The translations under genes were made by a program, and so were the position numbers. The notes under the pieces were generated by a model, which did no database searches, was not told the DNA's origin, and saw nothing but the letters and a program-made list of their open reading frames with translations. A stretch of 64,000 nucleotides of DNA, taken from NCBI RefSeq assembly GCF_000315055.1, contig NZ_BAER01000017.1, forward strand, positions 62,001-126,000. Direction: 5' to 3'. This DNA comes from Paraglaciecola polaris LMG 21857 (GTDB lineage: Bacteria > Pseudomonadota > Gammaproteobacteria > Enterobacterales > Alteromonadaceae). Below are positions 1,519 through 16,619 of this stretch, in pieces; the first letter of the stretch is position 1, and every line of letters begins with the position of its first letter.

Positions 1519-1965
1519 CTACCCGAGCAGCATCATTAAAAATGTACCCACCAAGGCAGGCTTATCACGGCCTTTAATATCAACTTGTGTATCGAAGCTA
1601 AAAAGCGTTCCCATTGCTTTACTTTCTTTTCTCGCCAATGTGGAAATGAAACGAATTTCGTCTTCCACCCTGACCGGCTCTAAGAAACGGATTTTATCTA
1701 CACCGTAATTTAAAACGGTTTGCGTACTGGAGTCGAGTTGTACCATACCGTAGAACGCTTCCGGCATAAGGGTGACACTTAGGTAACCGTGCGCAATCGT
1801 CGTTTTAAACGGGCTTTCTTTTTGACATCGCTCTACGTCTAAGTGTATCCACTGATGATCCCCCGTCGCCTCGGCAAACAAGTTAATCCGTGCTTGATCT
1901 ATCTTCATCCAATCGCTTGGTTCTAATTGCTCACCTACATCAAGTTGTAATAAATCTTTGGCCAT
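1519..1965 (-). CDS. MaoC-like (hot-dog fold) dehydratase
   Basis: This 148-residue single-domain protein is of the MaoC/NodN type, in the family of (R)-specific enoyl-CoA hydratases. The catalytic-type segment is ATGDHQWIHLD at about residues 33-43. It keeps the Asp and His of the hydratase motif but has Gln where classical PhaJ enzymes have Asn, as in the NodN subgroup. It ends with the conserved TIAHGYLSVTL segment and a C-terminal strand. The start at 1965 has a strong GAGGAG eight bases upstream. It is probably cytoplasmic and acts on acyl-CoA intermediates; the exact substrate is unknown. It stands alone, between the TonB receptor and a divergent M23 peptidase gene. Genes for fatty-acid oxidation nearby (fadE) fit a lipid role, but this is inference. 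Confidence 0.85.
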   Translation of the reverse strand: MAKDLLQLDVGEQLEPSDWMKIDQARINLFAEATGDHQWIHLDVERCQKESPFKTTIAHGYLSVTLMPEAFYGMVQLDSSTQTVLNYGVDKIRFLEPVRVEDEIRFISTLARKESKAMGTLFSFDTQVDIKGRDKPALVGTFLMMLLG

Positions 1966-2223
1966 CAGTGGCTCCTCGAATATGTAATTAATCTTTACGC
2001 TAGCACCGTCACTCTAGTGGTGACAACTCACCTGAATTTATTCAGATGTATAAATTTAAAGTGAACGACAAAATACTCACCACTATTTTCTTTGTAGCCC
2101 AAAAGGTTAAGTAATTTCATCGTAATAATTGCTTGTTCTATCTGAGACGAGAAATTAATTTATCGAATGTAGGTCTGTGTCTAATGTCTGCGAATATCGC
2201 ACAACAGCTTAATGAGGAAGAAA

Positions 2224-3018
2224 ATGCAAAAAATGTGGTTGAGCCTAGGTTTATTAAGTAGTGTGCCTTTTTTGACTCACGCCTACTGTATCGATGATTG
2301 GGCATGTTTTGACAAGATTAGTAATAAGCAAAAAGTAGAATATTGGTTACGTAATAACAAGCCTTACCCCATCACGTCTACACTTGAAGTGACGACCCGA
2401 AATCTGCACAGTACTGATAAGAAGCGCGTGCATTATAGTGAAACACGGGTTCTTGGCCCATTCGAACGGGTGAAAGTGTTGTCATTAAGTGTATTCGACC
2501 CGCTGCGCTCAACACGTATTAAGGAAAACTTTTTCTGGACACCCGGCATTCAAAACGCAGCCCACGATGACAGCTACCGCTACGCCTTACCTTATTCAGC
2601 AAATCATTCATTTCGATTAGTTCAGGGGGTGAACGGGGGGTTTAGCCATCATGGAGCTTCTCGTTACGCGTATGATTATGCGATGCCTGTCGGTACGCCC
2701 GTGCACGCAGCCCGCAATGGTCAGGTCATTGATCTTCAGCAGAAACATAACAAGGGTGGAGCAAGCCGCCGCTATTCTCGATTTGCCAACTTTGTGACGA
2801 TTTTACACACCGACGGCACCACGGGTGAGTATTATCATTTGCAGCAATACGGTGTCAAAGTAACGTTAGGTGAGCATGTTACCCGAGGTCAGTTGATCGG
2901 CTACTCGGGGAATACCGGCTTTTCTTCCTTACCCCACCTACACTTCGCGGTCTATCAAGCTAAAAGTCATGGTAAATACCAATCGCTCCCAATAAATTTC
3001 GTATCGTCGCAACCTTGA
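2224..3018 (+). CDS. secreted M23-family metallopeptidase
   Basis: This 264-residue exported protein has a signal peptide (MQKMWLSLGLLSSVPFLTHA) and a beta-rich N-terminal region of about 110 residues. A LytM/M23 peptidase domain covers about residues 120-260. Zinc ligands can be read as His143 and Asp151 in SHHGASRYAYDYAMPVGTPV, and His238/His240 in the HLH motif; His205 is the likely general base. The extended spacing between the first His and Asp occurs in a subgroup of M23 proteins. I chose the ATG at 2224 because GAGGAA lies just before it; an in-frame ATG at 2212 has no ribosome site. It probably trims peptidoglycan cross-links in the periplasm or is an endopeptidase of similar kind. 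It is not in an operon. Confidence 0.88.
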   Translation: MQKMWLSLGLLSSVPFLTHAYCIDDWACFDKISNKQKVEYWLRNNKPYPITSTLEVTTRNLHSTDKKRVHYSETRVLGPFERVKVLSLSVFDPLRSTRIKENFFWTPGIQNAAHDDSYRYALPYSANHSFRLVQGVNGGFSHHGASRYAYDYAMPVGTPVHAARNGQVIDLQQKHNKGGASRRYSRFANFVTILHTDGTTGEYYHLQQYGVKVTLGEHVTRGQLIGYSGNTGFSSLPHLHFAVYQAKSHGKYQSLPINFVSSQP

Positions 3019-3290
3019 CCTGCATCCCTGCTTGCGAAAACATAGGCCACAAAAAAATACCTGTCGACATAAGGCCATATACCTATAAACATTAGCCATA
3101 TTACGTTTTGCGAATAAGACTAACTCGCAAAATGGTGACTGGTACCGCTACTGAAAGTCGATTAGTGCCCATATATATTCAGTTTCAGCACGTCGCTGTG
3201 GTTAAAGCTTTACACACACAAGCCCTATTCTCGCCACACCTAAATTAAGAAATGTTTGATCTATTTTGAGAATTGCGTAGTATCAAACCC
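3019..3290. other. non-coding gap before fadE
   Basis: This AT-rich stretch holds no convincing gene and no terminator-like hairpin. A TTTTGCGAATAAG / ACTCGCAAAA inverted pair near 3105-3133 could form a weak hairpin. The fadE promoter is expected in its distal part, next to the FadR-like site. Confidence 0.4.
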
Positions 3291-3307
3291 AACTGGTCAG
3301 ATGAGCG
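3291..3307. promoter_or_regulatory. FadR-like operator in front of fadE
   Basis: AACTGGTCAGATGAGCG matches the FadR consensus AACTGGTCNGACCAGTT in 13 of 17 positions, with the left half-site perfect. It ends 14 bases before the fadE start codon, a position that fits repression. In enterobacteria and vibrios fadE is a FadR target, which supports the call. Confidence 0.55.
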
Positions 3308-3321
3308 GATGAGTAATCATT

Positions 3322-5577
3322 ATGAGTATTAGAACAAATCTTAAAAAAGTATTACCGGCAATTTCATTAACAGAGCAAGAAGCACTAGATGCAGGTGATG
3401 TATGGATTGAATCGTCAATTTATCGTGGAAGCCCTGACATGCAAGCGTTGCGTGCAATCCCGAAAGCGACATTAAGCGTTGACGAGCAAGCTTTTCTAGA
3501 CGGTCCTGTTCAGCAGTTGCTGAAAATGGTTGACGACTACGAACTGCAAAACGGTAATCACTTGCCGCAAAAGGTTTTGGACTTTTTATCGGTAAACAAA
3601 TTTTTTGCTCTCATCATTCCTAAAAAATTTGGCGGATTAGAGTTTTCTCCCTATGCCAACTCCACTATTGTTGCCACTATTGCTGTTAAAAGTAGTGCCG
3701 TAGCAGTAACCGTTATGGTGCCAAATTCTTTGGGCCCAGGTGAGTTACTCATGCATTATGGTACGACTGCTCAACAAGACCATTGGCTACCTAGCTTGGC
3801 CGTTGGTAAAGACATTCCTTGTTTCGCCCTAACCAGTCCTGAAGCAGGCTCTGATGCTGGCGCGATTCCAGATACCGGCATAGTTACCAAAGGTATGCAC
3901 AACGGCGAAGAAGTACTTGGTTTATCACTGACGTGGGACAAGCGTTACATTACCCTTGCGCCGATTGCCACCGTGCTTGGTTTGGCCTTTAAAGTATTTG
4001 ACCCAGAAAGCTTGCTCGGCGACACCGTCGAGTTAGGTATTACCTGTGCGCTTATTCCTAAATCTCACCCAGGTGTTGAATTGGGTAACCGTCATGATCC
4101 CATGGGTATTCGTTTTTACAACGGTACCACACGGGGAAACAAGGTATTCATTCCTATGGATTTCATCATAGGTGGCGAGAAAAACATCGGTCGCGGCTGG
4201 CAAATGCTTGTGAGCTGCCTAGGTGCTGGGCGCGGTATATCCCTTCCCGCTATGGGGGTTGCATCTGCACAATCAGCGCTGAAATCAACTGCTGAGTACT
4301 CATTTGTACGTGAGCAATTTGGTGTACCTATTGGGCGTTTTGAAGGCATTCAAGAAAAACTAGCTGATATTGCAGGTAAAACCTTCGTCTTAGAAGCAAT
4401 GCGTGTACTCACTACTGAAGGGTTAGGATTAGGTCTTAAACCATCCGTAGTAACAGCTATGGCTAAATACCACATGACAGAATTAGGTCGTGATGTATGC
4501 AATACCGCAATGGACATCCAAGCAGGCAAAGCAATTCAACGCGGCCCACAAAACACCTTAGCCAATAGTTATGCGGCTCAGCCCATTGCCATTACCGTCG
4601 AAGGTGCAAATATTCTGACTCGTAGCTTAATGATTTTCGGCCAAGGTGCGATGCGCTGTCATCCCCATATGAAAGAAATGGTCGACTTGATACACAGCGA
4701 CGACTCATCGGCTGATAAAGAATTCAACAAGGTGCTGGGTAAAACTATTCGCTTCAGCGTTAAAAATGCATTGCGTAGTTTTAGCAAAAGTTATGTGACC
4801 TTGACTCGTGGAGCTCAGTCTAGTCTGCCTGAAGTCAAGCCGTACGAAAAACGCATCAACGCGCTTTCAGCGAAACTTGCGCCCCTTGCCGATTTATCGT
4901 TACTGGTATTAGGCGGCGATTTGAAAAAGGCAGAAATGCTTTCTGCACGTTTAGGCGATGTAATGAGCTACCTTTACGCGTCAATGGCGGTAATACGCTT
5001 TTATGAGCAACGCGTGACGAATCGTATTGAAGCAAGGCCTTACTTTGATTACGCCATACAGTGGTGTTTACAACAAGGTGAGCAAGCTCTGAACGAATTT
5101 ATCAGCAACTTCCCGAATACGGCGACACGTGGTCTGATGCGTTTGTTAACCAACACCTATACCCGTTCGGTACCTGCGATATCTGACGAGTTGAAACGTC
5201 AGCTTTCGAATGCGACTATGGATCAAAGCAGTATCATGGCTGATTTAACGCATTTGGTTAAAGTTATTCCTGGTGATGCTAATCACATCAACCAAGACGC
5301 ATTTATCGCAAAACATGCTGTTATGCCAATTCTTAAAGTGGTGCAAAAAGCGCTACGGAAAAATCCGGTGGTACCTTTTGTTTCCTTTGAACATGCGGTC
5401 ACTACACTGCATGAAAATGGTGAACTAAGCGCAGACGATTTCGCTCGCGTGATCGATTATAACAATAAGCGACAGTTAGCCGTGCGTGTTGATGAGTACA
5501 CCTTTGACATGGAATTGCTTGATGCAAATCAACAACTAGTCAAAGCTGAACCAAAGACGCAAAACAACGCAGCTTAA
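3322..5577 (+). CDS. fadE: acyl-CoA dehydrogenase, FadE type
   Basis: This 751-residue enzyme catalyses the first, FAD-dependent step of fatty-acid beta-oxidation, acyl-CoA to trans-2-enoyl-CoA. The N-terminal, middle and C-terminal acyl-CoA dehydrogenase domains occupy about residues 70-470 (CFALTSPEAGSDAGAIPDTG in the FAD-contact region; EQFGVPIGRFEGIQEKLADIAG in the helical domain). They are followed by the FadE-specific DUF1974 region of about 250 residues. It is shorter than E. coli FadE (814) because it lacks the N-terminal membrane segments; it begins directly with a soluble helix. The ribosome site is weak. A FadR-like box sits just upstream and a strong terminator follows the stop. 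It is monocistronic. The family is certain; being the main FadE of the cell is likely. Confidence 0.9.
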   Translation: MSIRTNLKKVLPAISLTEQEALDAGDVWIESSIYRGSPDMQALRAIPKATLSVDEQAFLDGPVQQLLKMVDDYELQNGNHLPQKVLDFLSVNKFFALIIPKKFGGLEFSPYANSTIVATIAVKSSAVAVTVMVPNSLGPGELLMHYGTTAQQDHWLPSLAVGKDIPCFALTSPEAGSDAGAIPDTGIVTKGMHNGEEVLGLSLTWDKRYITLAPIATVLGLAFKVFDPESLLGDTVELGITCALIPKSHPGVELGNRHDPMGIRFYNGTTRGNKVFIPMDFIIGGEKNIGRGWQMLVSCLGAGRGISLPAMGVASAQSALKSTAEYSFVREQFGVPIGRFEGIQEKLADIAGKTFVLEAMRVLTTEGLGLGLKPSVVTAMAKYHMTELGRDVCNTAMDIQAGKAIQRGPQNTLANSYAAQPIAITVEGANILTRSLMIFGQGAMRCHPHMKEMVDLIHSDDSSADKEFNKVLGKTIRFSVKNALRSFSKSYVTLTRGAQSSLPEVKPYEKRINALSAKLAPLADLSLLVLGGDLKKAEMLSARLGDVMSYLYASMAVIRFYEQRVTNRIEARPYFDYAIQWCLQQGEQALNEFISNFPNTATRGLMRLLTNTYTRSVPAISDELKRQLSNATMDQSSIMADLTHLVKVIPGDANHINQDAFIAKHAVMPILKVVQKALRKNPVVPFVSFEHAVTTLHENGELSADDFARVIDYNNKRQLAVRVDEYTFDMELLDANQQLVKAEPKTQNNAA

Positions 5578-5594
5578 CAGCTGGCAGGGAAAGC

Positions 5595-5630
5595 AAAAGG
5601 GGGATGATATATTATCATTCCCCCTTTTTT
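5595..5630. terminator. bidirectional terminator between fadE and the sugar-acid operon
   Basis: A GGGGGATGATA stem pairs with TATCATTCCCCC (one bulged T). It is flanked by an A run on the left and six T on the right, so it can stop transcription from both converging genes. Confidence 0.85.
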
Positions 5631-5675
5631 ATATTGTCACACACGCCTTAGCGGCGAACGCTCAGCGAATGTATG

Positions 5676-6851
5676 CTACTTCACTTCCATGTGCGGTGAG
5701 CGATACACAATTTTATCGTTAAGGTCGATGCCAATTCCTGGCACTTCAGAGACTTCAAAAAAGCCATTTACCGGCTGAGGATCTTGAATACACAGTTCGC
5801 GGTTCCAATCTTTGATGGCATAAGTATGATGTTCGTGGATCAAGAAATTAGGGATTGCCGTTTCTAAGTGCAAGCTTGCAGCCGTTGCTACGGGTCCGCC
5901 ACATACATGGGCTTGAATACGAACATCGTAAACATCAGCATAATCACAGACCTTTTTCGCTTCAGTAAAACCACCACACAAACCAATATCAGGCTGCAAT
6001 ACATCCAAACTTTGATCTTCCAGATAGGGTCTAACACCCCAACGATTATATAAACGCTCACCACCCGCAATAGGAACATTAACCCGTTTAGCTACCTTGT
6101 CATGCAGTTTAGAATTAAGATAATTCACCGGTTCTTCATAAAACAAACAGCCTATATCCTCGACCATTTCACCCAATTGGATCGCGGTGGCGACACCCAA
6201 TAAGCTGTGACATTCGAAAATGATGTCCACATCATCCCCCACTGCATCTCGGATAGCCTGTAAGCGCGCTCTGAATAAACGCAGCTCAGGTTGTGTAAAC
6301 AATTTGGTGCGGTCAAAATGCCCCGCTCCCGTTTTATCATAAACAATAGGGTCAACCTTCACTGCATCATAGCCTTGAGCTACGGCTTTTTCTGCAGCTC
6401 GCCCATAATCCAGTGGATCGTTTAAACGCGTAACTTCACTGTCCCAGTCAAACTGTAATTGACTGGCATAGGTACGTAATTTTTCATTGGTTTTGCCCCC
6501 AAGCAGCTGATACAAAGGCACATTTAAGGCTTTCGCTTTTATGTCCCATAACGCGGTATCTATGGCACTCATCGCCGCATAAATGATGGGCCCGCCACCT
6601 AAACCCCAGAAACTCTCACGCAACATTCGGCTCCACAGCAACTCAGTGTTGACGGGGTTAAAGCCAATTAACATCGCCTCAGCAATCTCTTTGATCATGT
6701 GCGCCGCAGCACTGTGTCCTAAATCATAGGCGAGGCCTGCCTCCCCCACTCCACTGATGCCCTCATCGGTGTGAATACGTACAAACACAGGGTTCCAGAC
6801 TGGGCGTTTAGGGCATTCAATATCAAAAATTTCGACGCGGGTAATCTTCAT
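5676..6851 (-). CDS. enolase-superfamily sugar-acid dehydratase or cycloisomerase
   Basis: This 391-residue protein belongs to the mandelate racemase/muconate lactonizing enzyme family. The N-terminal capping domain (1-130) is followed by a TIM barrel. Catalytic features are visible: Lys165 in the VKVDP motif, metal ligands Glu213 (FECHS), Glu239 (YEEPV) and Glu265 (GGERL), and His315 in QAHVCGGP as general acid/base. His215 beside the first metal ligand resembles acid-sugar dehydratases such as D-galactonate dehydratase. Marine relatives in this group also include 3,6-anhydro-galactonate cycloisomerases of agar breakdown. The substrate is therefore an aldonic or related sugar acid, not settled by sequence. 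It is the second gene after the class II aldolase, 54 bp apart, with its own AGGAA ribosome site. Confidence 0.82.
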   Translation of the reverse strand: MKITRVEIFDIECPKRPVWNPVFVRIHTDEGISGVGEAGLAYDLGHSAAAHMIKEIAEAMLIGFNPVNTELLWSRMLRESFWGLGGGPIIYAAMSAIDTALWDIKAKALNVPLYQLLGGKTNEKLRTYASQLQFDWDSEVTRLNDPLDYGRAAEKAVAQGYDAVKVDPIVYDKTGAGHFDRTKLFTQPELRLFRARLQAIRDAVGDDVDIIFECHSLLGVATAIQLGEMVEDIGCLFYEEPVNYLNSKLHDKVAKRVNVPIAGGERLYNRWGVRPYLEDQSLDVLQPDIGLCGGFTEAKKVCDYADVYDVRIQAHVCGGPVATAASLHLETAIPNFLIHEHHTYAIKDWNRELCIQDPQPVNGFFEVSEVPGIGIDLNDKIVYRSPHMEVK

Positions 6852-9281: not shown

Positions 9282-10292
9282 CTAGATAGGGTTTTTATGA
9301 TGCGCTTGTTTGACCTTGTACATGGCTTGGTCGGCTTGTTTGAGCATATCACTGACGCTCCTTTGCACCTCACTAAACACCACGCAACCAACGCTAGCAG
9401 TTACGTTAATTTGGCCACTATCGGTATGAATATTAATATTTGTCAGACGACCCGTAAGCCGCTCTTCGAGAGCCCGTGATTGCGCCTCTCCGTCAAATTT
9501 TGCCAAGCCTACAAATTCGTCTCCCCCTAGACGACCCACCGCATCTTGATCACGCATTTGCTTTCGAATAATTTTAGCCAATATACGTAACACATCATCC
9601 CCCACCTGATGGCCATAACAGTCATTTATCTGTTTGAAATTATCCAAGTCGATATACAACAAACACAATATGCCACCGTTATCTTGATGCGCTTTAAGCA
9701 TCTTATTTGCTGAATTTTCCCATCCTCTACGATTAAGTAGTTCACATAAGGGATCGGTCATCGCTTGAGCCTGGGCTAAAATTTTATCTTGGTTGATGCC
9801 CTTTATCCGTTCAGAGGTTGCGATGGCCAGTAAAAAAGTTTCAACGGCAAATGAAAAAATCAGTCCGTAACGCTGTAAAAAAGGGCTCACATCCCCCAGC
9901 CATATACGAAAAATCATGGCGCTCAGAACTATACAAGAGGCAAGTAGAACAAGGCGTGCGGTATGTACTCTAACGTAAACCGCACAACTTATTAAACCAA
10001 ACGTAAATGCCATTAACCCAAAGGTCAAACGAGCCATAATGGTAGCGAGCCAAGCGAACCACTCCCCTCTTGGCATAAATAGGAGGGCGATAGAAATACC
10101 TAAAACGAGTCCTGCAGGGTACAAAACCGTTATGCGCGTTATTAAAGGCCAGCGGCCTTGCAAGTCTAATAACGAAACAACAAAAAAAGTGCCGGAAAAT
10201 ACCGTCAGCCCAGCAAATAATAGCTTCACCTGTCGAGTACTTAGTATTGTCGCGTCAAAAAATAAGTGTAAGTTGCCTTCTTGTAATAAAAA
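9282..10292 (-). CDS. diguanylate cyclase, C-terminal part of a frameshifted 7TM-DISM-GGDEF gene
   Basis: This reading frame carries most of a seven-transmembrane sensor domain (several hydrophobic helices) and a complete GGDEF domain. The GGDEF domain begins at TDPLCELLNRRGW, has the active site RLGGDEF, and carries an RDQD inhibitory site exactly five residues before GGDEF. It should make cyclic di-GMP and be feedback-inhibited. The frame has no plausible start of its own. It joins the upstream fragment (10241-10918) across a run of seven T (minus strand; 10288-10294). One extra T would give ...CAGMFFLLQEGNLHLFFD, a sensible 7TM-DISM helix. An open frame does extend to 10391, but those extra residues overlap the conserved upstream frame and are unlikely to be used. 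This is either a pseudogene, a phase-variable gene or a sequencing error. Confidence 0.8.
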   Translation of the reverse strand, partial: FLLQEGNLHLFFDATILSTRQVKLLFAGLTVFSGTFFVVSLLDLQGRWPLITRITVLYPAGLVLGISIALLFMPRGEWFAWLATIMARLTFGLMAFTFGLISCAVYVRVHTARLVLLASCIVLSAMIFRIWLGDVSPFLQRYGLIFSFAVETFLLAIATSERIKGINQDKILAQAQAMTDPLCELLNRRGWENSANKMLKAHQDNGGILCLLYIDLDNFKQINDCYGHQVGDDVLRILAKIIRKQMRDQDAVGRLGGDEFVGLAKFDGEAQSRALEERLTGRLTNINIHTDSGQINVTASVGCVVFSEVQRSVSDMLKQADQAMYKVKQAHHKNPI

Positions 10293-10918
10293 AACATTCC
10301 AGCGCAGAGAATATAATAGCAGTAGTGGCGGAAGCGCTTGTCCTTGAGGCTTCGGCCCATAAAATAAAGATAAAAAACTAATGTAATGCATAAACCAAAA
10401 AATAGGCCTAGTAATAAATTATGCCGTTGCCCCTTCAAAGCATAATCTGGCCATTTCTGTAAGGTCACACTAGAGAGGTAGTCTTGCTCAACATTTAGTT
10501 GAATTTCGGCAACAAAACGACCCGATGGTAAAGAAAATGTCAGTTGGTTAGCTGCTAAAGCGCCAACGTCTGATCCCTCAATACGCATGCTGCCGTGGTG
10601 GAGTAAGCGGTCATTTACCACCAGAACACCCGCTTGATTAATATCACAACGTAATATTAACGAGTTTGCAAATTGTAACAGAGGGACTTCAATGCTCTCG
10701 TTTAGCGGTACGTCTTGCTCGAAGTCATTGATCGAGACACTGCACAGATTATGCTCTTGGGCCAAAAGGGAGCTGCTAAATAAGCATAACCAACAGAGTA
10801 AAACAGGGAAAAGTAGCGAATAAGCCCTAGCGCGATAAGGGTAGAAAAAAACGAAGCTTATTAGCCTCAAACAAGACATCAATAATAACGACATGTAAAC
10901 AACACAAAAATACAGCAT
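10241..10918 (-). CDS. 7TM-DISM sensor, N-terminal part of the frameshifted diguanylate cyclase
   Basis: This part encodes a hydrophobic export signal (around SLLFPVLLCWLCLFSSSLLAQ), then an extracellular DISM2-like beta domain of about 130 residues. The first transmembrane helices of the 7TM-DISM module follow (LLLGLFFGLCITLVFYLYFM). The frame runs off into unrelated residues after CAGMFF and stops at 10241, 47 bases past the T7 tract. 7TM-DISM sensors bind carbohydrates or other small ligands in the periplasm and control output domains such as GGDEF. The start is uncertain: none of the ATGs at 10918, 10894 and 10879 has a clear ribosome site. As sequenced, the two parts cannot make one protein without a frameshift. 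Confidence 0.72.
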   Translation of the reverse strand: MLYFCVVYMSLLLMSCLRLISFVFFYPYRARAYSLLFPVLLCWLCLFSSSLLAQEHNLCSVSINDFEQDVPLNESIEVPLLQFANSLILRCDINQAGVLVVNDRLLHHGSMRIEGSDVGALAANQLTFSLPSGRFVAEIQLNVEQDYLSSVTLQKWPDYALKGQRHNLLLGLFFGLCITLVFYLYFMGRSLKDKRFRHYCYYILCAGMFFYYKKATYTYFLTRQY

Positions 10919-11085
10919 AGATAATGTATATACGTTATTTGAGGATTTGCCCGTTTGAAAGCGGATATTAGGCTAAAGTTTGATTTCGACTAAGTATTGG
11001 TTAATTTCACTTAGTATCGCGTTATTTCTAGTTTAGTAATCCCCTCCATATTAAATTATTAAATTAAAACAACTACTTACACACA

Positions 11086-11101
11086 TGGCACAACATCTGC
11101 G
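11086..11101 (+). promoter_or_regulatory. possible sigma-54 (-24/-12) promoter
   Basis: TGGCACAACATCTGCG has the GG and GC pairs ten bases apart required by RpoN and matches TGGCAC-N5-TTGC in nine of ten positions. It sits 48 bases before the ATG of the beta-solenoid gene at 11149, a sensible distance. A match this good is expected by chance a few times per window but rarely between genes. Confidence 0.4.
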
Positions 11102-11148
11102 TAAGCGGTAAGTATAGTTAAAAAATAATTTATCATTAACGAGGGATC

Positions 11149-11727
11149 ATGCCATATCTACTTGCCATTTTGAGTCTATCAACATTGCTATGCAATGCAG
11201 AATTAATAGCTTCAGACAAGAACCTCACCACTACAGACACGATTAACCAAAACATTTTAGTACCCGCCTATAGTCAAATCGATTCACTACATACCATCAA
11301 CGGCAATATTACCCTGCGGTCAGGGGTAAAGGTTAAGCAAATCAACTCCGTTAATGGTCAGATTGAAGGCGATACTGAGCTTAAGGTTACCGCCAATATA
11401 CGCTCAGTGAATGGTAATATCCGCTTAGCGCAAGGGAGTGTCGTTCAAGGGTCGATTAGTAGTATAAGCGGGAGTATTGTACTGAATAATGCGTTGGTGA
11501 CGGGAAATGTCACCACTTACCACGGCGATATTAGACTTAGCGGAGAAACCATTATCAAAGGCGATATCATCATTGGCGCTGCTAATGCGCCATCGAATAC
11601 CAGCTTAGTAGATTATTCTATGCCAACAATATGGATCTCTGACGAGGTTCAGATATTGGGTAGCCTGGTTCTGCTTCAACCCGCTGAATTACATATCACC
11701 AATGCAAGCATTGCCACCGATATTTAA
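11149..11727 (+). CDS. exported beta-solenoid (bactofilin-like repeat) protein of unknown function
   Basis: This 192-residue protein has an N-terminal export signal (MPYLLAILSLSTLLCNA). It then has short repeats of the form hINGNI / VNGQI / VNGNI / ISGSI about 20 residues apart (residues 45-150). Such hydrophobic-x-Gly strand repeats usually build a right-handed beta-helix, as in bactofilins and polymer-forming cytoskeletal proteins, but bactofilins are cytoplasmic. The ribosome site is strong (GAGGG before ATG). The gene lies alone between two c-di-GMP signalling genes and has a possible sigma-54 promoter. I do not recognise a named family; periplasmic or surface scaffold is a guess from the fold. 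Confidence 0.75.
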   Translation: MPYLLAILSLSTLLCNAELIASDKNLTTTDTINQNILVPAYSQIDSLHTINGNITLRSGVKVKQINSVNGQIEGDTELKVTANIRSVNGNIRLAQGSVVQGSISSISGSIVLNNALVTGNVTTYHGDIRLSGETIIKGDIIIGAANAPSNTSLVDYSMPTIWISDEVQILGSLVLLQPAELHITNASIATDI

Positions 11728-11794: not shown

Positions 11795-14700
11795 TTATGA
11801 CTCATTCGTTAGCCACTTTTTATCGATAAGCGCAAACGTATCTCCCATTGCGACTGGCCTAGAAAAGTAATAGCCCTGCAAGAAGTGACATTCATGTTGC
11901 TTGAAAAATTCGACTTGTTCGAGTGTTTCAATTCCCTCAGCGACACAATACATATCTAAACTTTGTGCCATGCGTAATATGGTTTCAATTAACGCCTCAT
12001 TATTGCTATTTATACCTATATCATCCACAAAGCTCTTATCTACTTTAATCACGCTAAGGGGGAATTCCTTGAGGTATTTTAAAGACGAATAACCCGTGCC
12101 AAAATCGTCCAACGCAATACAAAAACCAACTTCTTTCAAACGTTGCATGTATACAATGGCTTTTTGATAATCCTTCATCAGCGCACTTTCGGTTATCTCA
12201 AAGCGCACAGCATTTACCGGTAATTGGTTAGTGGCTAAAAAAGCAATAATATCGTTAATTGATTGTAATGATTCAAAATGACGAGCAGAAAGATTGATTG
12301 ATAAATAGCCTTTAAAATTGACCTCTTGCCAATATTTAAACATAGGAAGCGCCCGCTCCATCGCTTGTAACGTCATGCTTTCGATCAAGCCCAATTCTTC
12401 TGCCACCGGAATAAAGCGCCCAGGGGAAACTTTACCGGTGTCTGTAAACCAGCGCATTAGCAATTCAAAACCAACAATTTCATTCCGGCTTATATCAACT
12501 ATGGGCTGATAATGATTTTCAAATTTTTGCTGGCTATGGGCAGATTTAAGATCGCTTTCTAAAGCTAATCGCTGTTGCGCTAATACGTTCATTTTTGCCG
12601 TGAAAAATTGGAAATTGCTCCGGCCGTTTTCTTTAGCGTGATACATGGCAATATCTGCGTTTTGCAGCAATTCTTCTGCATTCAGTGCATCCTCTGGATA
12701 TAACGCGATACCAATACTCGATGACACGCTCACCATGTGGTTATCAAGCTGCACAGGGGTGTCGATAATGTTAATAATTTGACTGGCTAAATGAGTAAGG
12801 CCTTCGATGCTTTGCACATGCTCGATAAGTACCACAAATTCGTCGCCTCCAAGGCGGGCAATGGTATCTTCTTTACGTAAAAGGTTAAGTAATCGGGCCG
12901 ATATCTCTTGCAGCAGAGTGTCTCCCGCGCTATGCCCCAAGCTATCATTGACCTGTTTAAACTTATCTAAATCAATAAAAAACAATCCAAGAGTATGGGT
13001 GCCTCTTTGTGCTTGATCGATGGCATGATTTACCCGATCAAGTAACAGCGTTCTGTTAGGTAACCCAGTCAATGAATCGAAATTGGCGAGCTTCATCAAC
13101 GCCTGCTGAGCTTTTTTATGCTCACTGATGTCACTCAAAATGATCAAGTATGAATCTATGTCTGTTACATCATTGATGCTAGCCACCGCTTTAATGTAAA
13201 CCAGCACATCTCTAACTTCGTGGTTGTGTAAAATAATCTGGTCTTCACCGCGCCAATCATCCCCTGCCTTGAGCTCTTTTAACGTAGACCAAAATTGTAA
13301 CAACTCGGTTTCATTACCCCGATAAACATGACGTAGTTGACGGGCGATATCGTTTTGATCGTCAATGCCAAACGTATCACAAAATGCCTGATTTGCCGCC
13401 AGAGGCTCAGTATGTCGGTTACACACCAACACCCAATCTCGCGTATGCTTATATGCTTCACCGAATAAACGTAAGTCTTCCTGTTCGGTGATGCTTTCGG
13501 TAACATTGGTATAGGTGCCAACCACTTTTTGATTACCCTCATTCGCTGATCCGCCTGTGACATTCCCCACATCTCGATACCACAAGCAATGACCTTGCTG
13601 AGTGATCATTCGATAAGTGACATCTAACACCTTGTCCTTGCTACGAATAAACGCGCCCCACTGGCTTAAATAGTGCTCACGATCGCGGTTATGAATAAGC
13701 GCAATATGTTCCTCTCTCGGTACATATTCTAGTTTATCTCGGTAGCCTAGCTCACCAGTGATACGCGATGCGAGCACTTGGTCAGTCCATTCATCCCATT
13801 CCCATACACCGCTATTGCTGGCACGTAAAGCAAGTGATAATCGCGCTTTGCTTTGCAATGCTTCTCTGTGGGCACTGCGCAAACGTTGCGCTTGAAAACG
13901 GCGTCGCTTCCAGACTACGTATAGCACTAGCATAATCAACAAGGCATAACTCAAAAATGCCAAGGGCGATTTCCAAGGCGAATAATCCACCTTGATAAAA
14001 ATGGACGCGCTTGGGCTTATTTCCCCCCCTGACATACCGATAGCCGTCACGCTAAATTCATATGAGCCTGGCTCTAGTTTAGGAAAATAAACATGAGACT
14101 CGTCGGTCAATGGGTAAACGATGTCTCGGGCTCCTGTTAAGCGATATTGATATCGCGTACTGTGGATACTATCGAATTCCAAGGTTGAAAAGCTAATTCT
14201 CAAGCCCAAATCGTCATGCTGCAAATGAACCGTGCTGCCAGATAAGTCGGATAATGCAGAGGAATACTGCACAGAGGAAACACTAATATCCGTTATTTTA
14301 GGTGTCATCGTCGATGACGGGTTACTTGGCAATTGTGCCGGGTCAAACACCACCAAACCTTTTGGTGAACCAAATATCAGCTGGCCGTTAATGAGTTGCA
14401 AATTTGCACCTTGATTAAATTCTTCGTTTATTAAACCGTGACTGTGCCCATAACGCTGCAGCGTGTGGGACCTAGGGTTAAATTTAAGCAGTCCATTGTG
14501 GGAACTAATCCAAATACTCCCATTAGCATCTTGCTGCAAACTATAGATATTATTGGAGGGCAGCAGGTTACTTTTATCGAACAAATAGCGCTGTTCAAAG
14601 GTATCTCCGTCTAAACCAACTAGTCCGTAACCTGGGTAGCTGATCCACAATATATTTTGTGCATCTAACACCCAGCTATCGGCCGCGATATTTGCATGTA

Positions 14701-16378
14701 AGGTGTGATCCAATTGATGAATAGGCATCAGCTTGAGCTTAACTGGATCCCATTGATACAGACCCCCTAGCGCACTCAGCACCAGGTTGTTAGGAGCACT
14801 GGGTAACGAGGGTAAAATACTGTAAAGCAACTTGGTGATAGGCTGAGCATTTAATTCCGTTAGCGCAGTGACCTTATGAGTCACTGTGCTGTAGTGGTAA
14901 ACACCTTGCTCGTAAATAAAAAATAAATCGCCATTTCGATTAACATTTCCCGCAAAAATGTATTCACCAAGAATATTGGGCACTGGCTCACTATCAACCT
15001 TAATTACCTCTAACATTTCGGTATTTATATTAAAACGACGTAAACCATCCCCTGTTAATAGCCACAAATATCCCGTATCAGCGGCTAAGATCTGATGAAT
15101 ACTAGAAGCGGAATACTGAGGCATGTCTTCATCAGACACCATAAATTGGCGAGTGGTAGCCGTTTCGGTATTATAGAAATTTAAGCCGTTATCGGTCCCG
15201 ACCCAATATCCACTTGCATCTGACTGCCATAAACTCCACACGTTGTTGTCGCTAAGGGTCTTGTCAACGCGGCCTCCCGCACGATTAAACACGTTGTGAA
15301 AAACTTGCGAGGTACGCATCCAATGCAGGGCGCCATCCGAGCGAGTCCCCAGCCATAGGTTTTGTTTACCATCGAAGCCTACGTCATATATCACATCTTT
15401 AGACAAGAGCAGCCGACTGTCGGTAGGTCGTAATAAATGACTTATTTGCTGTGATTGTGCATCGTACGTGTAGATACCCTGATCGGTTGGCAGATAAAAC
15501 AGGCTATTGTCGGTGCTGCGAATTCGCCAAATATTGCGGCTCTCAATGAGTGTACTAAGTGGTTCAGGCTGAGTGCCTTGGGTAACAAACTGTTCAATCT
15601 GTGCCAACGAAAGGGTATACAATCCCTTGACTGTGCCTATCATCAAGCGGTCACGGCTGGCGTCCACATACAGTGTCTTTACATTTTTTTGGTCGTCATT
15701 AGCAAAACCTGCAAACAGAAAGCCCAAATCAACGGTTTTTTGTTGTGAGCGCGAATACACCAATAACCCTTCACTGGTGCCTATATACAATAAATCCCCT
15801 GACCACATTAGCGTGCGAATGAAATACCCTTTTTCGATCCGCGCCTGAGACATAGAGAAAACCGTGTTTAGGGCATTAGTTGGCCCGTCGTATGTCAATA
15901 CGTCCTCATCAAACGCAATCCAAATGTTACCCGTTTCGTCCTCAGCGAAAGCATTTGCCCCTTGCTGCCAGTCGGGAATAACCTGTGACTTACGGGCGTC
16001 GACTCGTGTGGCTTTGCCAGTGGTTAAATCAAGCTTGAACACGCCGGCACTAAAGGTCGCGATCCATAAATTTTCATGGCTGTCTTGCCATAAATCATTA
16101 ATCGTTTTTGCACCAAGTGCTGTGCCCTCTGGCTCAATGGCCTCAACTCTATAGCCATCGTAACGATTCAAGCCGGTATCGGTTCCCAACCATAAAAACC
16201 CCTGATTATCGACGTGCAAAACATTAATCGTGTCTTGGCTCAGCCCATTTTCAGTTGTTAATTGTGAAAAAACCGGCGTTTTCAATTCTGGCTTAGATAA
16301 ATCAACAATCGCTACCGCAAAAGCAGAATGGAATAACATCCCTATCCAGCTTACCAAACAACAATACTTACCTAACAT
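11795..16378 (-). CDS. ligand-propeller sensor with PAS, GGDEF and EAL domains
   Basis: This 1527-residue membrane protein has a signal peptide (MLGKYCCLVSWIGMLFHSAFA), then two-component-regulator propeller repeats (GLSQDTINVLHVDNQGFLWL and many WxGTxxGL motifs) and a Y_Y_Y domain. A transmembrane helix lies at about 800-822, then PAS-type domains, GGDEF (active RLGGDEF near 1178) and EAL. The EAL motif reads ELL near 1308, keeping the catalytic Glu, and DDFGTGYSS near 1426 is intact, so phosphodiesterase activity is plausible. Periplasmic ligand binding would set c-di-GMP levels. I start at 16378, where GGAG precedes the ATG; an open frame continues 66 codons further upstream without support. 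It is divergent from the M28 peptidase gene. It shares architecture with the gene at 31970. Confidence 0.9.
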   Translation of the reverse strand: MLGKYCCLVSWIGMLFHSAFAVAIVDLSKPELKTPVFSQLTTENGLSQDTINVLHVDNQGFLWLGTDTGLNRYDGYRVEAIEPEGTALGAKTINDLWQDSHENLWIATFSAGVFKLDLTTGKATRVDARKSQVIPDWQQGANAFAEDETGNIWIAFDEDVLTYDGPTNALNTVFSMSQARIEKGYFIRTLMWSGDLLYIGTSEGLLVYSRSQQKTVDLGFLFAGFANDDQKNVKTLYVDASRDRLMIGTVKGLYTLSLAQIEQFVTQGTQPEPLSTLIESRNIWRIRSTDNSLFYLPTDQGIYTYDAQSQQISHLLRPTDSRLLLSKDVIYDVGFDGKQNLWLGTRSDGALHWMRTSQVFHNVFNRAGGRVDKTLSDNNVWSLWQSDASGYWVGTDNGLNFYNTETATTRQFMVSDEDMPQYSASSIHQILAADTGYLWLLTGDGLRRFNINTEMLEVIKVDSEPVPNILGEYIFAGNVNRNGDLFFIYEQGVYHYSTVTHKVTALTELNAQPITKLLYSILPSLPSAPNNLVLSALGGLYQWDPVKLKLMPIHQLDHTLHANIAADSWVLDAQNILWISYPGYGLVGLDGDTFEQRYLFDKSNLLPSNNIYSLQQDANGSIWISSHNGLLKFNPRSHTLQRYGHSHGLINEEFNQGANLQLINGQLIFGSPKGLVVFDPAQLPSNPSSTMTPKITDISVSSVQYSSALSDLSGSTVHLQHDDLGLRISFSTLEFDSIHSTRYQYRLTGARDIVYPLTDESHVYFPKLEPGSYEFSVTAIGMSGGEISPSASIFIKVDYSPWKSPLAFLSYALLIMLVLYVVWKRRRFQAQRLRSAHREALQSKARLSLALRASNSGVWEWDEWTDQVLASRITGELGYRDKLEYVPREEHIALIHNRDREHYLSQWGAFIRSKDKVLDVTYRMITQQGHCLWYRDVGNVTGGSANEGNQKVVGTYTNVTESITEQEDLRLFGEAYKHTRDWVLVCNRHTEPLAANQAFCDTFGIDDQNDIARQLRHVYRGNETELLQFWSTLKELKAGDDWRGEDQIILHNHEVRDVLVYIKAVASINDVTDIDSYLIILSDISEHKKAQQALMKLANFDSLTGLPNRTLLLDRVNHAIDQAQRGTHTLGLFFIDLDKFKQVNDSLGHSAGDTLLQEISARLLNLLRKEDTIARLGGDEFVVLIEHVQSIEGLTHLASQIINIIDTPVQLDNHMVSVSSSIGIALYPEDALNAEELLQNADIAMYHAKENGRSNFQFFTAKMNVLAQQRLALESDLKSAHSQQKFENHYQPIVDISRNEIVGFELLMRWFTDTGKVSPGRFIPVAEELGLIESMTLQAMERALPMFKYWQEVNFKGYLSINLSARHFESLQSINDIIAFLATNQLPVNAVRFEITESALMKDYQKAIVYMQRLKEVGFCIALDDFGTGYSSLKYLKEFPLSVIKVDKSFVDDIGINSNNEALIETILRMAQSLDMYCVAEGIETLEQVEFFKQHECHFLQGYYFSRPVAMGDTFALIDKKWLTNES

Positions 16379-16619
16379 GCGACTCCGTTTTACAACCTGC
16401 TTGTTACCATCGCCATTGTAACGTGATGTTACATAAATACAAAAAAGCATTAACAAAAAATAGAGAAAATAATGCCACGCTTTATGCTTCGAATAAGCAA
16501 TAAGGTAGCCATTCACCTTTAATAGTGGCGCACTTAACGCATTATCGACGCGAGATACGTGAAATATGGATAACATGGCATTGAATCATCAACGGTTAAC
16601 ATAATAAGAAGAGGTATGA

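Follow-up and report, generated by a model that had tools for sequence, protein, structure and literature searches.

The window gene, which lies in a 64,000-nucleotide stretch of Paraglaciecola polaris LMG 21857 DNA (the window), most likely belongs, on comparative sequence evidence, to the PspF (phage shock) regulon and not to a c-di-GMP programme. We consider it probable that it is a PspF-regulated envelope-stress gene. It had earlier been read, from sequence only, as perhaps being controlled with motility or biofilm genes; its upstream architecture points instead to the phage-shock activator PspF. The features on which this assignment is built, and those of the neighbouring genes, are collected in Table 1.

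Table 1. Coordinates of the window gene, its promoter and its neighbours (positions in the window).
Feature	Position	Strand	Remarks
CDS, 192 aa, probably exported beta-solenoid protein	11149..11727	+	divergent member of a mostly-lipoprotein family
Signal-like hydrophobic N terminus, residues 1-17, without lipobox	11149..11199	+	sequence; cleavage site predicted
Beta-solenoid region, residues 25-183	11221..11697	+	predicted structure
Sigma-54 -24/-12 element TGGCACAACATCTGCG	11086..11101	+	starts 63 bases before the ATG; recurs upstream of relatives
IHF-like site AAACAACTACTTA	11067..11079	+	1 mismatch to WATCARNNNNTTR; 19 bases upstream of the -24 element
PspF-type enhancer (UAS), core CTAAGTATTGGTTAATTTCACTTAG, predicted	10987..11014	.	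motif match
Whole promoter match to model R1	10980..11104	+	37.6 bits, E 1e-10 in the window
7TM-DISM/GGDEF gene (c10), in two frames, 10241-10918 and 9282-10391	9282..10918	-	intergenic region shared with the CDS
Reg_prop-PAS-GGDEF-EAL protein (c13), 1593 aa, neighbour	11795..16576	-	ORF, domains; beside the family gene only in the window's branch

The sigma-54 element departs from the consensus TGGCACNNNNNTTGCW at 2 positions. Sites within 2 mismatches of this consensus are no commoner in the window than chance predicts (34 against 41.3 expected), so the element proves nothing by itself and was dropped as evidence when taken alone. What makes it credible is that relatives retain it in a constant position before the gene, and in this respect the promoter proposed in the sequence-only reading holds, though the single-site match is at chance level. 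The element is present within 2 mismatches in 38 of 47 family upstream regions and within 1 in 30 of them, and four further upstream regions display it once start codons are corrected. For these tests four starts were corrected by hand, five others were trimmed and one locus (L008) was left out because sequence was lacking. The elements of L050 and L053 are doubtful since neither is accompanied by an IHF-like site.

In 31 of 38 promoters, the window's among them, the 30 bases upstream contain an IHF-like site that departs from the consensus at one position at most, compared with 5.9% of shuffles, and an exact site is found in 11, compared with 0.4% of shuffles. The site is mostly 17-19 bases upstream of the -24 element, and the highest-scoring enhancer match starts about 89-98 bases upstream in most of these promoters. 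The -24/-12 element keeps a fixed distance from the enhancer, and the promoter alignment displays the layout of enhancer, IHF-like site and -24/-12 element directly. Both this anatomy and its match to psp promoters are well supported.

The match to psp promoters was established with a 26-base enhancer motif trained only on pspF-pspA intergenic regions, 30 of which were fetched and 25 kept as non-redundant. Scores average 10.7 upstream of 47 family genes and 1.1 upstream of 244 control genes; 36 of the family regions exceed the 95th percentile of the controls and 21 the 99th (Mann-Whitney p=1e-18), and several of the top-scoring controls are identical sites viewed from the divergent neighbour. 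The window's own enhancer is weak by this motif, scoring 7.9 against a 95th percentile of 7.4. In E. coli the motif gives 13.8 for pspA and 16.7 for pspG, whereas 12 other genes that we take to be sigma-54 dependent score 9.4 (norV) or less. Control sequence from E. coli, 106 kb in all, has no site scoring 13 or more.

A second model, R1, describes the whole promoter and was built from 33 of 39 family promoters, four of them from the window's branch, without psp or window sequence. Six promoters were excluded by hand (L031, L033, L036, L039, L042 and L048), of which L031 and L036 are near-copies. Run over 32 psp loci (30 from the family and 2 from E. coli), R1 finds its best match in E. coli pspA (33.5 bits, E 3.9e-9, positions 6-126). 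The pspA promoter is also the best of ten E. coli regions, followed by hycA/hypA (24.2 bits), norV (19.6 bits) and hydN (19.2 bits); for hycA/hypA and hydN the match covers only the IHF/-24/-12 half, and for norV, whose activator is NorR, it covers the whole model. Within its own genome, where 150 of 3465 candidates were scored, the window gene ranks best (E 8.7e-9), and the genome's own pspA promoter reaches just 14.5 bits with R1.

The whole-length norV match bears on the idea that some other sigma-54 activator with a Fis-type DNA-binding domain drives the family, through an enhancer that merely resembles a PspF site. In the genome the PspF model does find 11 matches, but only one reaches the cut-off and the other 10 are taken to be other activators. 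Such an activator is nonetheless quite improbable here, because the psp-trained motif separates pspA and pspG from the 12 other E. coli sigma-54 genes and because R1, a promoter-only model, ranks E. coli pspA first. Taken together, the motif and R1 results argue for membership of the PspF regulon rather than of a c-di-GMP programme. The genome has a pspF gene over the TIGR02974 cut-off (C89:15901-16950), divergent from pspA and from a pair of small ORFs that occupy the pspB/pspC position. Since pspF is present in 195 of 196 family genomes, its co-occurrence with the window gene is uninformative.

We propose that damage to the inner membrane causes PspA to release the enhancer-binding protein PspF, which would then bind at or about the enhancer listed in Table 1. 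IHF would bend the DNA at the IHF-like site and sigma-54 RNA polymerase would start from the -24/-12 element, regulatory steps for which the comparative evidence from sequence is strong. We infer PspF binding and induction by stress, along with the export, location and molecular role of the product. The product would be exported and, in most relatives, lipid-anchored, probably in the outer membrane on its periplasmic side; the window's branch has no lipobox, and its protein would be soluble in the periplasm. The rigid beta-solenoid would most likely offer a scaffold or a surface for binding within the damaged envelope.

The flanking genes had suggested a c-di-GMP island with an enzyme of that pathway on each side. 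GGDEF and GGDEF-EAL genes are indeed present, but c10, on the left, runs across two frames: relatives of c10 are single frames of 539-565 aa to which the window's c10 aligns in two, with the break near 10253-10291, which suggests a frameshift or a sequencing error. A survey of 12 genus loci also speaks against the island, as c10 stands beside the family gene in 5 of the 12 and c13 in 4, all of the window's branch. The constant neighbour is c1, presumably a phytanoyl-dioxygenase relative, which adjoins the family gene in 12 of 12 loci, inserted genes aside, with c3, c2 and c5 coming next in most. That the protein is a periplasmic or surface scaffold under c-di-GMP, together with motility or biofilm genes, is thus hardly credible even with both enzyme genes adjoining, given that these neighbours are lineage-specific, one of them frameshifted, and that the promoter is psp-like.

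A homologue search, proposed along with the sequence-only reading, recovered relatives in the genus, GTDB family, order and class. Matches occur in 21 of 22 genus genomes and in 105 of 295 genomes of the GTDB family (Alteromonadaceae), part of the latter only weak and to longer DUF4097-like proteins. At E 1e-12 the family profile finds members in 26 of 295 order genomes and 6 of 274 class genomes, the window's genome being counted in. The related-locus search of genome contigs gave no relative, whereas the genome searches did find them. One DUF4097-like relative of 334 aa (L192:1120-2124, G000:C20) lies behind what may be genes for ECF sigma and anti-sigma factors, which places a similar fold in a separate envelope-stress setting.

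The typical relative is a lipoprotein of about 205-240 aa, and comparison of 12 genus loci identifies the window gene as the positional counterpart of this lipoprotein gene. A lipobox is present in 36 of 48 relatives, an upper estimate because start codons were chosen to favour it, and the call for L034 is doubtful. The residue following the cysteine is Ile in 24, Val in 6, Leu in 4, and Cys and Phe in 1 each. By the E. coli +2 rule, Ile, Val or Leu at this position directs a lipoprotein to the periplasmic face of the outer membrane, and so this is the predicted location of most relatives. The lipobox-less branch consists of the window gene and its counterparts in G006, G010, G009, G005 and G013.

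Control by PspF looks, from the promoter sequences, to be old in this order and not general to the fold. Outside the family, eight order-level relatives were compared: L159, from a different GTDB family within the order, shows every element of the layout, L141 scores 20.1 bits with R1, and L144, L145 and L160 have partial layouts, while L147, L148 and L149 yielded none of the psp-type layout. A psp-type promoter was also sought upstream of five distant class-level relatives and none was found.

The 192-residue product carries the NGN/NGQ (VNG-type) repeats that the sequence-only reading had described as bactofilin-like, and the solenoid fold is borne out by prediction; export, the remaining part of that description, is only probable. 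Although the N terminus is hydrophobic, its first 8 residues include no Lys or Arg, and export is for this reason graded as likely. The ORF begins with ATG, and both frame and promoter are intact in the window copy.

The window copy has lost its lipobox and, from sequence comparison, belongs to a fast-changing, partly decaying branch; it may be losing its function. Outside this branch, five pairs have dN/dS values of 0.05-0.13 and are under purifying selection. Within it, the values are 0.21 for L003/L004, 0.46 for L016/L019 and 0.17, with saturated dS, for L001/L003. N-terminal repeats are missing in part of the branch, G013 retains a 103-aa remnant (L062) whose promoter match is without the -24/-12 part, and G016 has no match. 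The loss of lipobox and repeats, the G013 remnant, the missing G016 match and the L016/L019 value would all fit a decaying remnant, in which case the family would be PspF-regulated and this branch without lipoprotein function. We regard this as somewhat unlikely: the window copy keeps an intact ORF, the solenoid prediction for it is confident, its promoter tops the own-genome R1 scan of 150 out of 3465 candidates, and the L003/L004 and L001/L003 values, the latter read with its saturated dS, are lower.

Structure prediction, also proposed with the sequence-only reading, gave a beta-solenoid with good confidence, and the fold is well supported. AlphaFold2 placed residues 25-183 of the window protein in the solenoid (mean pLDDT 85.7), using an alignment of 40 (A2) of the 48 family loci; the canonical lipoprotein form, modelled with 34 (A3), reached a mean pLDDT of 84.4. 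A Pfam scan of the window protein found no model at its cut-off, Toastrack DUF4097 and bactofilin being nearest. The PDB sequence search, with the window protein and family profile as queries, returned chance-level matches only; the PHROGs search returned weak matches only, to one virion family and otherwise to families without a known function; and Foldseek against the PDB gave none at E <= 0.001. Among the Foldseek matches listed, the highest probability (0.80, 18% identity) belongs to PDB 8z5u chain 0, a 180-residue component of a polar flagellar motor, on which a literature search found nothing.

Similarity to bactofilins (PF04519) is seen in the solenoid repeats, in weak profile matches and in the BacA structure (2n3d), which aligns to the predicted solenoid over nearly its own length (102 of 103 residues, Z 11.1, rmsd 2.5). 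With 29 of 34 relatives matching the bactofilin profile at E <= 0.01, the protein could be a true exported bactofilin that polymerises into periplasmic filaments. This is unlikely, however. The window protein scores 18.9 bits against a Pfam cut-off of 27.9, which is passed by one of the 11 relatives with displayed scores (L045, 32.0 bits), that is by one of 12 proteins when the window is counted (window, L065 and ten more), although the best relative E-value suggests at least one further protein over the cut-off. Moreover, many other beta-solenoids match as well or better, reaching Z up to 13.6, so that BacA is one among a crowd. The family is set apart from bactofilins by its psp-type promoter and by a lipobox or signal peptide.

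The preferred reading, an exported solenoid under PspF control, finds parallels in the Toastrack partners of PSP (LiaG, YvlB and LiaX), whose right-handed beta-helix repeats are tied to the PSP/Lia response (PMC11237479). By analogy with these partners and with enterococcal LiaX, which is described as recognising daptomycin in the extracellular medium (PMC9752123), we infer a role as scaffold or binding surface. The family differs from the Toastrack partners in reaching no curated cut-off among the scores compared, in being without a fused transmembrane domain and in having its own promoter rather than sharing an operon with pspA. With the Toastrack model (PF13349, DUF4097; cut-off 22.9) the window scores 18.2 bits and L054 18.3. 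The LiaX model (NF038025) is matched weakly by 34 of 34 relatives, with 27.3 bits for the window and 30.1 for L065 against an NCBIfam cut-off of 350. The VIA structural matches listed are mostly generic beta-solenoids; none of those listed is described as Toastrack, nor was the Toastrack's intertwined N-terminal seven-stranded region seen among them, an absence that excludes nothing.

The known E. coli PspF targets are described as only the psp operon and pspG (PMC9239133). Like pspG, the window gene is a single gene outside the psp operon with a PspF-type enhancer and a sigma-54 promoter, and family promoters are built like that of E. coli pspA, with the enhancer, the IHF-like site and the -24/-12 element in common; the difference lies in the product, here an exported beta-solenoid and mostly a lipoprotein. 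Among the papers listed by literature searches, which cover few subscription papers, none was found to describe the family as a target of PspF. The results suggest a new exported helper in the phage-shock response. A tentative but quite plausible extension is that the phage-shock response of these gammaproteobacteria, presumably marine, deploys an envelope effector of its own, a PspF-switched, separately promoted beta-solenoid lipoprotein exported to the outer membrane. If so, then with enterococcal LiaX, Gram-negative PspF and Gram-positive LiaFSR would both send a beta-solenoid beyond the membrane guarded by PspA or LiaH. With a widespread exported family under a psp promoter, the phage-shock response would reach across the periplasm and its outer effectors could be approached directly; the Toastrack/bactofilin-like fold would also be tied to Gram-negative PSP through regulation, not operon neighbourhood.

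Further psp-type sites occur in the same genome. The second-best R1 match (150 of 3465 candidates scored) is a psp-type promoter (L082:6687-6812, minus strand, G000:C29) that immediately precedes a second gene of the PspA family, one located outside the pspF locus. The third, on the same scan, lies around 1814-1951 of L190 (G000:C52), where a strong PspF-type enhancer (23.8) and a sigma-54 site precede an operon (genes 1899-6602) for a membrane-fusion-like protein and a pump that we take to be RND-type. From its sequence this efflux operon is a candidate member of the PspF regulon, which would then be wider still. A gene for a small exported-looking protein, presumably OsmY-like (L191, 1577-2191, minus strand, G000:C119), has sigma-54 and IHF-like sites without a convincing PspF enhancer.
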